Assembly (NCBI GenBank): GCA_902608845.1 | Contig: CACLPR010000002.1 | Location: 1-64,000 of the forward strand | Length of the DNA stretch: 64,000 nt | Reading direction: 5' to 3' | Source of the DNA: an uncultured Pelagibacteraceae bacterium | GTDB taxonomy: Bacteria > Pseudomonadota > Alphaproteobacteria > Pelagibacterales > Pelagibacteraceae | Part shown: positions 47,041-53,853 of the stretch, piece after piece | Layout: each line of letters opens with the position of its first letter | Position numbering within the stretch: the stretch's first letter is position 1 | The notes under the pieces: generated by a model | What the model was told of the DNA's origin: nothing | The model's database searches: none | What the model saw: only the letters and a program-made list of their open reading frames with translations | Translations under genes and position numbers: made by a program

Positions 47041-47748
47041 ATGAATTTTTTATCTATTGCAAGTTACGTGGTACTAATTCTAGCTCTAATTCTATCAATA
47101 ATTTTATTTTATAAGCTTTATTTAAAAATTAAAAGTTCTGACAAAAGTAATTTTAACCTTATTGAATTTCCAAAAGAAACTAGTTCTAAAATAGAAAATT
47201 TTATAAACGAATCTAAAAAAAATAATGAAGAATTAATAAAATATTTAAATAGTCAATATAAAGATGCAAAATCAATTATAAAAGACGTAGACGAAAAAAT
47301 TGCTCCATTTGAAAAAGTTGCTAGAGAAAAAAATGATGAACTTAAGGAATACAAAAGAGGTTATGAGTATTCGAGAAATAAGTCGATACTAGATGGTATA
47401 ATTGATACGATTGTTTTCATTGAGAACGCTGAAAAAAAAATTCAATTAAATGATGATATTACAAAATCGTATTTCCAAAGCACAAAAGACAAACTTTTGA
47501 TAGTTTTAAATAATTCAGGAATAGAAATATTTACACCTAAACTAAATATTAATAGTATCGACCATCATGGTTGTGAAGTTGATGCAATCACTGAGCCAAC
47601 TAAAGACAAAGAAAAAAATAATTTAGTTCATTCAATAATTTCGAATGGTTATATGACTAAACTTAAAAATGATGAAATATTTTATCTTAAAAAAGCATTG
47701 GTAAAAATTTATGAATTTAATAATGATATAAATAAAGGAGCTAATTAA
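47041..47748 (+). CDS. membrane-anchored GrpE-like protein
   Basis: N-term TM VVLILALILSIILFYKLYL, coiled coil, then LKEYKRGYEYSRNKSILDGIIDTIVFIENA and C-term ...HSIISNGYMTKLKNDEIFYLKKALVKIYEF resembling GrpE. Confidence 0.65.
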   Translation: MNFLSIASYVVLILALILSIILFYKLYLKIKSSDKSNFNLIEFPKETSSKIENFINESKKNNEELIKYLNSQYKDAKSIIKDVDEKIAPFEKVAREKNDELKEYKRGYEYSRNKSILDGIIDTIVFIENAEKKIQLNDDITKSYFQSTKDKLLIVLNNSGIEIFTPKLNINSIDHHGCEVDAITEPTKDKEKNNLVHSIISNGYMTKLKNDEIFYLKKALVKIYEFNNDINKGAN

Positions 47749-47750
47749 GT

Positions 47751-49289
47751 ATGAGTAAAATTGTAGGAATTGATCTTGGAACTACCTTTTCAGCAATCGC
47801 AATCTTAGATGATTTGGGGAACCCAGAAGTATTATCTGATCCAATAAATAACAATAGAATTACTAGATCTGCTGTATATGTTGGAAGAGAAAAAGCAATA
47901 GTGGGTGATAAAGCTATTGATGCTGCTGTAACAAATAAAAAAAATACTATTCTTGAAGTTAAAAGTGAGATGGAAAACGATGTTGTTTGGTCAACATCTA
48001 AAGGACAATGGATTGATAGAGATGGTAAAAAAGATGTTAAGGGCTATACTCCATCTCAAATATCATCTCTTATTCTCTCAAAATTAAAAGACTACACATC
48101 TGGTGTTAAAAAAGCAGTTGTTACGGTTCCAGCAATGTTTGCAGAAGCCGCAAGAGTTGCAACAATTGATGCAGCTAAATTAGCAAAGCTAGATGTCGAG
48201 TTAATTAATGAGCCAACAGCAGCAGTTCTTCATTATGCAAATCTTCCAGGAGTATCAATTAGTGGCAGAGTGTTGATATTTGATCTAGGGGGAGGTACTT
48301 TTGATATAACCATAGCAGCTGTAAAAGATAAAAAAATTGATGTTATAACATCTGTAGGCGATAAGCACTTAGGTGGAAGAAGATTTGACGAAGAAATTAT
48401 CAAAATTTTAGATAAAAAATATAAGAAAGCAAAAGGTAAAGGACTAGATGATTTAAATGATGAAAAATTATTTCTTATAGCTGAGAGAATTAAGAAAATC
48501 CTTAGCAATAAAGAAACAGCATCAGAAATTATAGAAGGTCCTAAAGGTCCACAAAAAATAGATATTACTAAAAAAGAATTTGAAAATTCTATTGATACAT
48601 ATGTTGAAAAAATAAAGATGTTAATGGAAGAAGCTTTAGAACGGGCCGATTGTAAACCGAGCAACATTCAACAAACACTTTTAGTGGGTGGGAGTACAAG
48701 AATGCCTTTTGTTAGTGAAATTATTAAAAAAATTATGAAAAAAGCACCAGTAAAGGGAGTAAATGTTGATGAGGCTGTTGCTTGTGGTGCAGCTATTTAT
48801 GCAGGTATACAAAACAAAGATGAATTAAATCCTTCTCAAAAAAAAGCAATTGCAAAAGTAGATTTACAAGACATATGCAATTTTTATATGGGAACCTTAA
48901 TGGCAACAATTGACCAAGAAAAAGATCAATGGGGAGTAGTTAATGATGTTGTAATACCAAGAGATACAAAACTTCCATGTTCAATTACAAAGAATTATGC
49001 AGTTTTACATGATGACCAAGAAACAATTGATTGCTCTGTTACACAAAGTGAGGGTGAGGAGAGCAATATAGATTTTGTGGTAGTTATAGCAAAAGAACCA
49101 CTAAAATTGTCAAAAAACGCTAAACAAGGTGACCCTGTAGAAGTTACATATTCATATGACACAAATGGAAAAATGCATTGTGTATTTCAAGAAATGAAAT
49201 CGAAAAAAAAACATGAAATGACTTTAAAACCAGATGGATCTAAAGAATTTAAAAAACTAAAAGATGAACTTGATTTTGATATAGAATAA
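47751..49289 (+). CDS. Hsp70/DnaK-family protein, truncated (no lid domain)
   Basis: VGIDLGTTFSAIAIL, AVVTVPAMFAEAARVAT, LINEPTAAVLHYA, IFDLGGGTFDITI, LLVGGSTRMPFV; 512 aa. Confidence 0.95.
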   Translation: MSKIVGIDLGTTFSAIAILDDLGNPEVLSDPINNNRITRSAVYVGREKAIVGDKAIDAAVTNKKNTILEVKSEMENDVVWSTSKGQWIDRDGKKDVKGYTPSQISSLILSKLKDYTSGVKKAVVTVPAMFAEAARVATIDAAKLAKLDVELINEPTAAVLHYANLPGVSISGRVLIFDLGGGTFDITIAAVKDKKIDVITSVGDKHLGGRRFDEEIIKILDKKYKKAKGKGLDDLNDEKLFLIAERIKKILSNKETASEIIEGPKGPQKIDITKKEFENSIDTYVEKIKMLMEEALERADCKPSNIQQTLLVGGSTRMPFVSEIIKKIMKKAPVKGVNVDEAVACGAAIYAGIQNKDELNPSQKKAIAKVDLQDICNFYMGTLMATIDQEKDQWGVVNDVVIPRDTKLPCSITKNYAVLHDDQETIDCSVTQSEGEESNIDFVVVIAKEPLKLSKNAKQGDPVEVTYSYDTNGKMHCVFQEMKSKKKHEMTLKPDGSKEFKKLKDELDFDIE

Positions 49290-49290
49290 T

Positions 49291-50496
49291 ATGCTTGAAG
49301 TAGTAATAGTATGGGTTGTTTTAGCAATAGGTTGGGCCTTAATAAAAGGTGTTTTTGGAGCAATGTTTGGTGGTGGAGGTTCAAGCTCTAATCTTGAAGA
49401 AGTAGTTAAATCAAACCCGTTTTCAATAAAAATTACAAAAGGTATTCCTAAAGATACTGACTTAAAAATTAATTGTTTTAATATTGAAATGTGTGGAATG
49501 GTTAATCATCCTACTCAAGATGAAATAAAAGTTTTTCTTACAGTACAGGACATAACTGATGAAGAACCAGGACTCCCTGTTTTATCTGCACAAGCAGTTT
49601 TCTGTGAACCCAATAGTAGAGTTTTAGGTTTTTACCAGATTGTTAAAACAAGTTATGATGGATATTATCCAGACTGGGTGAAGTTTTGCTCTTTACCACT
49701 AGATTTTATTATACCACCTCACAAAGGATCAAGAAAACTTAAATTTATACTTTTAGCTTGTGATTACGACACAGAATTGGAAAGAGGCGTGGTTACAGAT
49801 ACTTCAAAAGTAAAACATTTTGCTTCTAAAGAAGTTAATTTTAGTTTTAAGGAACCAGGTTATATGGATGAAGTAAAAAACAAAGATAAAGTTGAAGAAT
49901 TGTCAATTAAACTAGGGATGTGTATGGCTGCAGCTGATGGTCATTTAGATCAAAAGGAGTTAAATGTAGTTAAAGATTGGGCAAGGAATGTAACGAATCT
50001 ACTTGATAATGATATTAAAAAAGAGAGAAATAAATTTTTTTCTAAATTGATTAAGGAATCATATATTGCAGCAAAAAAAAGAGATATCTCATTATCTAAA
50101 TTAGTTGATGAGTTTAATAATATTGCCTCAAAATCTCAAAAATATACAGCTATGCAGCTAATGTTAGATATAGCAAGTGCTGATGGGCGACTTAGCAAGA
50201 CAGAAGATCAGTTAATAAATAAAATTGCAAAAACAACTGGAGTAAATCTTAATACATTTAAAGAAATGAAAGATAAAGTTATTGCAAATGTTGACGAATT
50301 AGAAATTTCTGAAAAACCATCTGAAGAGAGCTTTGGGCTTACTGATGAAATGGAAGATATTGAAAAATGTAAACTATTAAGAAAAGAATATACTAAATGG
50401 AATGCTCAAACTAATCACAGGGAAGTTAAGAAAAAAAAAAGAGCTAAAGAAATGGTAAAAATTATAGCGGATATGCGTAAGCAGTATAATTGTTAA
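49291..50496 (+). CDS. membrane-anchored protein with two TerB-like repeats
   Basis: N-term TM; MAAADGHLDQKELNVV and IASADGRLSKTEDQLI repeats. Confidence 0.7.
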   Translation: MLEVVIVWVVLAIGWALIKGVFGAMFGGGGSSSNLEEVVKSNPFSIKITKGIPKDTDLKINCFNIEMCGMVNHPTQDEIKVFLTVQDITDEEPGLPVLSAQAVFCEPNSRVLGFYQIVKTSYDGYYPDWVKFCSLPLDFIIPPHKGSRKLKFILLACDYDTELERGVVTDTSKVKHFASKEVNFSFKEPGYMDEVKNKDKVEELSIKLGMCMAAADGHLDQKELNVVKDWARNVTNLLDNDIKKERNKFFSKLIKESYIAAKKRDISLSKLVDEFNNIASKSQKYTAMQLMLDIASADGRLSKTEDQLINKIAKTTGVNLNTFKEMKDKVIANVDELEISEKPSEESFGLTDEMEDIEKCKLLRKEYTKWNAQTNHREVKKKKRAKEMVKIIADMRKQYNC

Positions 50497-51620
50497 TGGA
50501 CCATTTCGATAAATACAAATTTAAAAGTGATAATCCTAATGAATTTGGAATAGATTTAAAAAAATTTAAAAAAAATGAAATTTTAGATGAAAGTCATTTA
50601 TCTAATTTACTATCTCATTCAATAAGAATTTCTAAGGATATTTTACCATCTGTTTCTCAATCAATTGATGCAGTTATAGAAAAGTTGGATATTAAAAATG
50701 AATTTGATTTCTTTGTTACGTCAGACAATTATCAAGCCAACGCTTCTTGCAGTCTTATGTCTCCATTCTCAAAACCATTTATTATTTTAACTTCTAAATT
50801 AATTGAGCTATTAAGTGAAAAAGAGCTTGAATTTGTTATAGGTCATGAAGTGGCACATTATATTTACCAACACTCATTGTATCCAAATCATCAAAATGAG
50901 GAAAATAGGAACTTGAGGTTAAATATATTGAATTTAAGTAGGGCAGCAGAAATTAGTGCTGATAGGATAGGTATTTTGGCATGTGGAGATTTGGAGGCTG
51001 CTCTAAGAGCTAATATTAAACTAACATCTGGTTTAAGTGATAAATATTTAAATTTTAAATTTTCAGCTTATTTAGATCAGCTAAGAGAAATTGAAACAAT
51101 TGGTAAGAGTAATAACCAATTGTGGAGCACTCATCCTAGTTTTTTAATTAGGATGCAAGCATTAATATGGTTTTCAATGACCAATGAGTATAACGAATTC
51201 TTTAAAACTAAAAAGAAAGGCACATACAACATCGCAGAAATTGATGAAAAAATTGAAAATTCTAAACAAAAAATGATAGGTAACGAAATTGAAACGTCAA
51301 ATCAAGAAATAATTAACAGAGCTTTTATGTGGGGTTCCTTGAACCTTTATTTAAGTGACAAGAAATTTACTAAATACGAACAAGAAGAATTTAAGAAAGC
51401 ATTTGGTGATGATGCAAAAAAAGCAATATCACTGATAAAAATTACAGATAAAAATATGCTTCAAAAAAAAGTAGAATCATCTTTTTTAGAGGCATCAAAA
51501 ATGCTTAAAACGAATAAAAGTAAATTGATCGATAAATTAAAAAATGTTTCTAATAATATAGAAGGTGACGCAAGTAAAAAAAAAAAGGTTTTAAAAGAAT
51601 TAATTAAATTTTTAAATTAA
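50490..51620 (+). CDS. M48-like zinc metalloprotease, predicted cytoplasmic
   Basis: ELEFVIGHEVAHYIYQH (HExxH), AAEISADRIGILAC; no signal peptide or TM; C-terminal TerB-like stretch. Confidence 0.8.
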   Translation: MLMDHFDKYKFKSDNPNEFGIDLKKFKKNEILDESHLSNLLSHSIRISKDILPSVSQSIDAVIEKLDIKNEFDFFVTSDNYQANASCSLMSPFSKPFIILTSKLIELLSEKELEFVIGHEVAHYIYQHSLYPNHQNEENRNLRLNILNLSRAAEISADRIGILACGDLEAALRANIKLTSGLSDKYLNFKFSAYLDQLREIETIGKSNNQLWSTHPSFLIRMQALIWFSMTNEYNEFFKTKKKGTYNIAEIDEKIENSKQKMIGNEIETSNQEIINRAFMWGSLNLYLSDKKFTKYEQEEFKKAFGDDAKKAISLIKITDKNMLQKKVESSFLEASKMLKTNKSKLIDKLKNVSNNIEGDASKKKKVLKELIKFLN

Positions 51621-53152
51621 TAACTAGTTTTAAACATTGCCCAACTAAGAGCATTTATAGTATTTTCAGGAACAACGTTTATATTTAGGAGTATTATAAT
51701 AAATACAATTAAAAAGTAAGACAAAATACCAAATCTTTTACTGTAATATGAAATTAGATTTTCTATTTTATTTTTGTTCTTAGACTTACTTAATTGAAAC
51801 GATATAATTGCAAGTATGTTTGGAGCCGCAGCATATACATATGAAGTAAGTATAATCCAATCCATCACAGTTAAATAATTAAGTTTAGGAAGTTCGTTAT
51901 CAATAACAAAATTATATGCAATTAATGAAAGAAGACATACAATTGTAATAGTAAGTTTTGATTCTATTTCCTTTCTGTCGACCCAAACAGAAGACCAGCA
52001 GACAAATAGTATTAACATTATTGGAAGAATAATTTTGAAAATATAATAAAAAGATTGTCTTTCTATCTCAAATTCAATTGTGCCTTCATTAAATATCAGA
52101 TTACCAAGATCTATTTTGTTTTGAACAGAAATTTTGCTGTCTATAATTTTCCATCCGGGAATCGAATTTTCCTCAGTAAGTTTTAAAATTCTATAACTTA
52201 TGTCGCTAAATTCAAAATAATTTTCCTCAAAATCATCCATATCAATTAGATGTATTTTTATTTTTTGCTTATCAAAAGGAAATGATAAAAGATTAAATTT
52301 ATTTCTTACACTCCAGGTTCCAGTGGTGTTGCCTACGATATTTAATGTAAGCTCTTCATCTTCAGCAGTAAAATATAAATCAACTGTATCATAAATTAAA
52401 TTTTGATCCTCTGATAATAAATTTTCAAAAGCAAGATTTTCTCCAGGATAGATTAATCTGTAATTTTCTGCTAAATCTTGTGGTATATCCATACAATCAT
52501 CTGAATTCCATTTTCCATCTTTAAATTCTGCTAAATATTTTTTTGCTAGATCTACAACAGGAAATATATTATTGTCGTAGTATTCTTTTCTTAAACTGAT
52601 TGTAGATGAAAACGTGACAACCGAATTAACAATATCTATGTCATTTATTGATTCTAAAGCAAAATCTACAATGTTATAGGTTCTTTCATACTCAACACGT
52701 TTTAAGGAGACTTCTTTTATTTTTTTATCTCTTTCATACACTAAATTAATAGTATCCTTATTTGGTGAATAAATTAATTCCTTAATAGTTTGATCATCCA
52801 AGGTATTAAAATTTTTTCCATCAATAGCAATTAATATGTCGTTTTTTTTAAAATAATTTAAATAAGGTGGATGAGAAATTAACCCAATATAAGGATAGCC
52901 TCTTTTATCTCTTCTTATTTTAGATAAAAAACTTGTATCTTTTAAATCTAATGTTGCTGGAGGGTCATAATTGAATGCAATGCCAAAATCATTAAACTCA
53001 TCCACAACATCCCATCTGAACTCTGGGTTATCTTTAGACTCTAATGTTAATGCTTCTAAAAAATCATAACAAGATGGAGATAAAGAATGACTAGTTTTTG
53101 AAACTGAAGCAACAAATAGCAAAATAAAAAAAATATATCTTAATTTTATCAT
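51617..53152 (-). CDS. pentameric ligand-gated ion channel homologue with N-terminal PDZ-like domain
   Basis: signal peptide; YPYIGLISHPPYLNYFKKNDILIAIDGKNF (PDZ-like); LLSFPFDKQKIKIHL; RQSFYYIFKIILPIMLILFVCW; LTITIVCLLSLIAYNFVIDNELPKLNYLTVMDWIILTSY (M2-M3). Confidence 0.85.
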   Translation of the reverse strand: MIKLRYIFFILLFVASVSKTSHSLSPSCYDFLEALTLESKDNPEFRWDVVDEFNDFGIAFNYDPPATLDLKDTSFLSKIRRDKRGYPYIGLISHPPYLNYFKKNDILIAIDGKNFNTLDDQTIKELIYSPNKDTINLVYERDKKIKEVSLKRVEYERTYNIVDFALESINDIDIVNSVVTFSSTISLRKEYYDNNIFPVVDLAKKYLAEFKDGKWNSDDCMDIPQDLAENYRLIYPGENLAFENLLSEDQNLIYDTVDLYFTAEDEELTLNIVGNTTGTWSVRNKFNLLSFPFDKQKIKIHLIDMDDFEENYFEFSDISYRILKLTEENSIPGWKIIDSKISVQNKIDLGNLIFNEGTIEFEIERQSFYYIFKIILPIMLILFVCWSSVWVDRKEIESKLTITIVCLLSLIAYNFVIDNELPKLNYLTVMDWIILTSYVYAAAPNILAIISFQLSKSKNKNKIENLISYYSKRFGILSYFLIVFIIILLNINVVPENTINALSWAMFKTSY

Positions 53153-53853
53153 ATTTTTTTTTTCTCAAATTCTTTTCTTTTTTTCTTTTGTTTATTTTTC
53201 AAAACTTTATGTAAATATAATGAGTAAATTATTAAAATTATAATAATAATCATTGATGAAGGGTAAATTAAATAATTATAAAATCCGTGAAATAAGTATG
53301 GTAATAATAAAGATAATAGCAAAAATTTCTTATTTCCAGTAAAAGCATACATTCCAAAATAATATCCCATCACAGCCCCATTTAATCCATGCAAAGGTAT
53401 AGCGCTATAAGATCTACCTAGAGCAACAAAATATGAATATACTTCAGGACTTTCATTGTCTTCATTTGCCCATTCAACTGCTAATTCATAAACATACGAA
53501 TAATTTTCATATGTTGCAAAACCTAGCGATACGACAACTCCATAAACCAAGCCATCCATTGGTTCATTGAATTCATTTCTCTTTAAAACGATTAGATATA
53601 ATATAGCAAACTTCAGTAGTTCTTCAGCCCATGCTGGTCCCAAAAAACTTATAGTCAAATTTTCTGAATAATTAAATTTTTCAAAAAATAGGCCATGACT
53701 TAATTCGTTCAAAATTCCTGCTGGTAAGCATATAAGGAAACCTAAAAAAAAAATTAAAATTATTGTTTTTAAAGGTTCTTTAAATTTATCGTTTAGAGTG
53801 AAATATAATAAAATTAATACAGATGGTAGAAAAGTTAAGACAGCTGTTAGCAT
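53149..53853 (-). CDS. PrsW-family intramembrane protease-like protein
   Basis: GPAWAEELLKFAILYL, DGLVYGVVVSLGFATYENYSYV, PLHGLNGAVMGYYFG. Confidence 0.83.
   Translation of the reverse strand: MLTAVLTFLPSVLILLYFTLNDKFKEPLKTIILIFFLGFLICLPAGILNELSHGLFFEKFNYSENLTISFLGPAWAEELLKFAILYLIVLKRNEFNEPMDGLVYGVVVSLGFATYENYSYVYELAVEWANEDNESPEVYSYFVALGRSYSAIPLHGLNGAVMGYYFGMYAFTGNKKFLLLSLLLPYLFHGFYNYLIYPSSMIIIIILIIYSLYLHKVLKNKQKKKRKEFEKKKI

Follow-up and report, generated by a model that had tools for sequence, protein, structure and literature searches.

Natural ligands and biological roles have been established for few of the bacterial pentameric ligand-gated ion channels (pLGICs). Among those with solved structures are channels that respond to protons. 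ELIC is gated by primary amines (PMC3119659). The architecture common to ELIC, GLIC and sTeLIC comprises an extracellular (periplasmic) ligand-binding domain (ECD) and four transmembrane (TM) helices, with a Pro-loop of the form FPFD, a pre-M1 arginine and an M2 pore, and no extra domain precedes the ECD. DeCLIC of Desulfofustis, a calcium-sensitive channel, carries an added N-terminal periplasmic domain made up of two jelly-roll lobes (PMC9897478, PMC12664993). In the PBP-I-fused pLGICs of Tasneem et al. (PMC549065) a sensor domain is likewise placed ahead of the channel; the fused domains there are binders of small molecules, and neither PDZ domains nor proteases are mentioned in that paper. 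Pertinent passages of papers on the evolution and structure of prokaryotic pLGICs describe PBP-I, Cache, MCP-N and jelly-roll additions, and no PDZ domain. PDZ domains are found in a different class of periplasmic sensors, the DegS and RseP stress sensors, where a periplasmic PDZ is coupled to intramembrane proteolysis. Such domains dock or present substrates for RseP/site-2 proteases and for DegS. PrsW of Bacillus subtilis, an intramembrane metalloprotease, cuts the anti-sigma factor RsiW, acting as a site-1 protease (PMC3498285).

Here we describe a SAR11 locus in which a pLGIC carrying a PDZ domain is encoded directly beside a PrsW-family protease. It lies in a 64,000-nucleotide stretch of DNA, analysed as a whole and referred to as the window, from a draft genome of ~0.94 Mb (74% complete) that, among named relatives, is nearest to single cells of Pelagibacteraceae (SAR11). 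A sequence-only reading had assigned this DNA to a marine alphaproteobacterium and recognized in it a pLGIC homologue with an N-terminal PDZ-like domain, an architecture that it regarded as non-standard. The coordinates that it gave are exact and delimit a single, uninterrupted ORF on the minus strand (Table 1), whose 511-aa translation contains every motif quoted, and the closest relatives indeed come from SAR11. In the open-licence literature we found no paper on a PDZ-bearing pLGIC (PDZ-pLGIC), a PrsW-linked pLGIC or a pLGIC of SAR11, which agrees with the view of the architecture as non-standard. There is very little doubt that the gene product is a PDZ-bearing pLGIC. For the full mechanistic reading, that of a PDZ-bearing cation channel gated via its peptide-binding PDZ and forming one functional module with PrsW, we estimate a probability of roughly 0.5.

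Table 1. Features of the PDZ-pLGIC locus in window coordinates
Feature	Position	Strand	Basis
PDZ-pLGIC gene, 511 aa	51617..53152	-	ORF; ELIC 7.5e-16; AF2 pLDDT 89.4; Foldseek pLGICs
Signal peptide, ~residues 1-24	53081..53152	-	hydrophobic N-terminal helix 2-17 (model) and sequence; cleavage site estimated by eye
N-terminal helix, residues 26-41, with C28	53030..53077	-	model; C28 in 47/47
PDZ domain, residues 50-154; carboxylate loop F56-G57-I58; aB helix 120-128	52691..53005	-	profile, AF2, Foldseek, G57 46/47
pLGIC extracellular (periplasmic) ligand-binding domain, residues 156-365, ending at pre-M1 Arg365	52058..52687	-	model, Foldseek, alignment
Pro-loop motif FPFDKQ, residues 291-296	52265..52282	-	F291, P292, D294 47/47; Q296 44/47
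M1, residues 367-390	51983..52054	-	AF2 model
M2 pore helix, residues 396-418; E-2', K0', T2', V6', L9', A13', F16', D19'	51899..51967	-	ELIC alignment, model, conservation
M3, residues 429-456	51785..51868	-	AF2 model
M4, residues 461-493	51674..51772	-	AF2 model
PrsW-family intramembrane metalloprotease, 234 aa, directly upstream	53149..53853	-	PF13367 6.8e-34; motifs intact; adjacent in 32/47 relatives
ATGA overlap, PrsW stop / channel start	53149..53152	-	ORF coordinates; overlap in 29/32 adjacent pairs

The assignment of the second half to pLGICs of the ELIC/GLIC type is borne out by several independent lines, and the TM region does match pLGIC profiles. A phmmer search of the PDB with the single protein recovered ELIC over residues 279-467, and a family profile reached 4e-29 and also matched GLIC, sTeLIC and DeCLIC. 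The Pfam Neur_chan_memb model scores the single protein below its gathering cut-off (E 0.0013) and matches 43/47 relatives at E <= 0.1. An AlphaFold2 model built with 47 homologues (pTM 0.83) displays the ECD and four TM helices, and Foldseek searches with it retrieve DeCLIC, at the top, along with GLIC, ELIC, sTeLIC and GABA-A receptors (1e-18 to 1e-17). The Pro-loop pLGIC features that sequence and model can show are present, namely the FPxD signature with the pre-M1 arginine, and four TM helices with the M1 proline and the M2 pore: F291, P292, D294 and R365 are shared by all 47 relatives and Q296 by 44, and P377 of M1 is invariant. In M2, E-2', T2', L9' and A13' occur in 47/47 with a K/R at 0' throughout, V6' is found in 45/47, and F16' and D19' in 46/47 each; this prime numbering was derived from the ELIC alignment together with general convention. 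The resulting pore pattern, as in GLIC, ELIC and nAChR, points to a cation-selective channel. No cysteine is found in residues 278-305, so that the two-Cys loop of the animal Cys-loop receptors is absent and the loop, judged by sequence, is of the prokaryotic Pro-loop type only. Two other cysteines, C28 in the N-terminal helix and C220 in the ECD, are conserved in 47/47, and we consider a C28-C220 disulfide a candidate pairing. The ECD is too divergent for the aromatic-box ligand-site residues of ELIC to be mapped by sequence.

The sequence-only reading had further recognized a PDZ of the periplasmic-protease type, and the N-terminal region does fold as one. The single-protein Pfam match (PDZ_2, 8.8e-5) is sub-threshold, and given such weak matches standard annotation could miss the domain. 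A profile of 25 N-terminal segments searched against the PDB recovers a site-2 protease PDZ tandem at 3.1e-13, followed by DegP, RseP and PSD-95. Folded on its own, the segment attains an AlphaFold pLDDT of 91, and Foldseek ranks the PDZ domains of CtpA, HtrA, DegS and EpsC at the top, with marginal E-values (best 1.2e-3) and a probability of 1.00. Fold and homology are accompanied by the functional elements of the domain, namely an aB helix at residues 120-128 in the AF2 model and a hydrophobic-G-hydrophobic carboxylate-binding loop, in which G57 is retained in 46/47 and residue 58 is F, I or L in 45/47. The N-terminal placement stands only in so far as the PDZ precedes the ECD; in the model it does not occupy the extreme N-terminus but follows the N-terminal helix (26-41) and precedes the first long ECD strand, which starts at ~153, and it is hence an insertion. 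Sister SAR11 channels of ~400 aa possess the same Cys-containing N-terminal segment and then pass directly into the ECD, with no PDZ. As compared to ELIC, GLIC and sTeLIC, the protein therefore has in addition a ~105-residue PDZ, an N-terminal helix with an invariant cysteine and a PrsW partner. It resembles DeCLIC in having an added periplasmic domain, but the domain is a PDZ in place of jelly-roll lobes, and DeCLIC does not appear among the best sequence matches of the N-terminal domain when the family profile is run against the PDB. As the single-protein Pfam scores for both halves fall under the gathering thresholds, we weighed the possibility that two ORFs had been joined by chance or in a chimera; the recurrence of the same architecture in dozens of independent assemblies, together with the high-confidence fold and the purifying selection, excludes such an artefact, and its probability is negligible.

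The survey of marine alphaproteobacterial homologues yielded ~50 PDZ-pLGIC relatives from SAR11 and other marine Alphaproteobacteria, and reached beyond them to SAR86 and another gammaproteobacterium. Full-length profile matches are present in 12/148 Pelagibacterales genomes. A tree built from 89 channel cores requires two changes of the PDZ state; it contains several long branches, and its deep order is unsure. Several outlying long members (L049, L053, L060, L061, L063 and L089) are not recognized by the PDZ profile, and their PDZ may be divergent or degenerate; the ~700-aa pLGICs of other Proteobacteria likewise give no match to this profile and, by eye, resemble the PBP-I fusions of Tasneem et al. 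(PMC549065). Tandem PDZ-pLGIC genes occur in L022, L023 and L026, and in L049 two long pLGICs flank PrsW; these pairs could possibly form heteromers. At L059:4153-5675 the PDZ and channel parts are in two ORFs, possibly a pseudogene or an assembly error, the near relative L051 being intact.

Among the PDZ-less sister channels, one ~400-aa SAR11 pLGIC is directly preceded by a flavin amine oxidase with a twin-arginine-like signal (L015:6925-8253; PF01593 1.7e-44), and the same pair recurs in 11 further loci (L016, L017, L019, L021, L024, L028, L031, L050, L054, L056 and L057). Because ELIC is gated by primary amines, the PDZ-less form may, by analogy, be an amine-sensing channel paired with a ligand-degrading enzyme.

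The sequence-only reading had proposed that unfolded or cleaved periplasmic peptides might gate the channel. The canonical carboxylate-binding loop makes it plausible that the PDZ of the channel binds C-terminal peptides. Among relatives the PDZ and ECD show a median identity of only ~21%, and one ligand common to all PDZ-pLGICs is therefore unlikely. This strong divergence of the PDZ sequence would also fit a channel that responds to a small molecule, like ELIC with its primary amines, with the PDZ serving as a structural or assembly element devoid of a regulated ligand. Such a reading draws further on the solved prokaryotic pLGICs, which answer protons, amines or calcium, and on the amine ligands to which the oxidase-linked relatives point in the sister clade; yet the near-invariance of the loop glycine, along with dN well below dS in the PDZ of close pairs, indicates a domain under constraint, and we regard small-molecule gating as unlikely.

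The peptide-gating reading gains its second component from the gene upstream of the channel, missed by the sequence-only reading: a PrsW that shares an operon with the channel, whose EExxK, EN, H155 and HxxxN motifs are intact and whose 4-nt ATGA overlap with the channel start suggests translational coupling. A PrsW gene is adjacent in 32/47 PDZ-pLGICs, 31 of them having it immediately upstream on the same strand and 29 with overlapping ORFs, and this linkage is kept in 21/28 clusters at 50% identity and includes SAR86, gammaproteobacterial and other alphaproteobacterial loci (L051, L053, L058, L060 and L063). The catalytic residues E77, E78, K81, E116, H155 and H189 are conserved in 47/47, N117 in 46/47 and N193 in 45/47. 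Across 148 Pelagibacterales genomes, PrsW occurs in 9/12 with a PDZ-pLGIC versus 12/136 others (Fisher 7e-7, uncorrected for relatedness), and shared ancestry accounts for part of the linkage seen among related SAR11 genomes. The distance correlations of PrsW with the channel, 0.72 for the TM region and 0.49 for the PDZ, are uncorrected for shared ancestry and hence were not counted as evidence. Neither partner is strictly tied to the other: 12/148 genomes of the order have PrsW in the absence of a PDZ-pLGIC (see also loci L096-L102), and 5/47 channels have no PrsW in the available flanking DNA, the contig being short on one side for L035 and L061.

The partner shares both family and motifs with B. 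subtilis PrsW, which acts on the anti-sigma factor RsiW (PMC3498285), whereas in SAR11 it is paired with a channel, and ECF sigma region 4 (PF08281) was detected in 0/58 genomes of the order, the controls being positive in 13/14. The known PrsW target pathway thus appears to be absent from the order, a role as a classic anti-sigma protease is rejected, and PrsW needs another substrate. Its own C-terminus, which in many cases closes with a hydrophobic residue (EYEKKI/L/V), was considered as the PDZ ligand and set aside, since the Lys-rich tail is probably cytoplasmic and its sequence reflects the nucleotides shared with the start codon of the following gene.

The overlapping, conserved gene pair and the lack of a known sigma/anti-sigma target could also be accommodated if the PDZ served the protease, by docking PrsW or presenting its substrates, such that the channel would be a regulator or substrate of the protease with no direct peptide gating. 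The best profile matches of the PDZ being site-2 protease PDZ tandems, the weak match of the family profile inside a SAR11 M50 (RseP-type) gene (G089), and the PrsW genes without a pLGIC, which in SAR11 adjoin other signal-peptide/exported or paired TM proteins as if periplasmic partners were exchangeable, all favor this view. It is countered by the position of the PDZ, which lies inside the periplasmic portion of a channel that is complete, well conserved and equipped with every coupling residue, the usual place of allosteric modulators, and by the PDZ-pLGICs of L047, L048 and L062 that lack a PrsW neighbor. We rank this docking role close behind peptide gating, as a serious rival if a somewhat doubtful one. 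In DegS and RseP, close PDZ relatives, the PDZ belongs to the protease itself; here it belongs to the neighboring ion channel.

Most of the remaining neighbors of PDZ-pLGICs vary between loci. In the window, an operon at 47041-51620 (+), convergent with the channel, encodes GrpE-like, Hsp70-like, TerB-domain and M48 peptidase proteins; two other genomes carry the same set near a PrsW gene that lacks a pLGIC (L100:8107-11564, L101:7122-11724), and its composition suggests a proteostasis-type island. In the second family of the order a TerB-domain protein and a large coiled-coil membrane protein are found beside PDZ-pLGICs (L091:2082-5294, L092:1788-4997, L093:7711-10177). A trypsin-like (HtrA-type) serine protease with acidic, calcium-binding-like repeats is encoded directly downstream of the PDZ-pLGIC at L029:6272-7489, L042:5912-7159, L043:6287-7615 and L046:5708-6967. 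A CII-like regulator (Phage_CP76) is often situated near PDZ-pLGIC loci, and was not found beside the channel/PrsW pair of the window.

Two independent locus comparisons, as opposed to a survey, reveal replacement of the periplasmic half, which the sequence-only reading had likewise missed. In both L020/L026 and L015/L030, DNA identity is ~86-99% over PrsW, signal peptide and TM region but falls with sharp edges to 57-76% over the PDZ and ECD. A recombination scan was run over all pairs, of which most are too divergent and the close ones alone informative. As dN is below dS in the swapped PDZ and ECD, recombination between alleles that diverged long ago seems a better account of these halves than runaway point mutation. 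With the periplasmic half exchanged and the pore and PrsW kept, the sensor would change specificity while the output remains the same.

This allelic replacement of the sensor, the patchy presence (12/148 genomes), the islands with TerB, Hsp70 and M48 peptidase, and the CII-like regulator near many loci are also reminiscent of a conflict or envelope-defence system, in which a variable sensor (PDZ and ECD) would detect a phage or competitor and the channel or protease would respond. Ordinary niche or ligand adaptation fits similar patterns. Moreover, PADLOC returned no match for the channel or PrsW and only weak ones for neighbors, which eliminates a known anti-phage defence system for the pair, and no homologue was found in phages or viral contigs, which dismisses a phage origin. 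We consider a defence role highly improbable.

Under the peptide-gating reading that we prefer, the mature protein would be an inner-membrane, cation-selective pentamer displaying five PDZ domains, made together with PrsW from the overlapping genes as one functional module. The PDZ would bind periplasmic peptides or proteins by their free hydrophobic C-termini, and the bound C-terminus would bias the ECD such that the pore opens or closes. PrsW would work in this pathway too: it could trim the channel or the clients held by the PDZ, or inactivate the channel by cutting it, and would thereby produce, remove or reset the signal. Both the gating by the PDZ and the substrate of PrsW are what we infer. 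Only tentatively, and at well below even odds, do we extend this to a dedicated signalling unit in which C-termini are converted into ion flux and sensor alleles are shuffled among SAR11 populations.

The fused domain, which belongs to the peptide-binding PDZ class, and the conserved partner PrsW each direct attention to peptides and proteolysis, and thereby make the role of this bacterial pLGIC testable. They suggest a previously undescribed link between ion flow and the sensing of protein quality or peptides. If true, a PDZ inserted just in front of strand one of the ligand-binding domain would represent a new design of allosteric channel. SAR11 are among the most abundant marine bacteria, and since no ECF sigma envelope-stress signalling was found in them, the PDZ-pLGIC could provide a substitute route for sensing the state of the periplasm.
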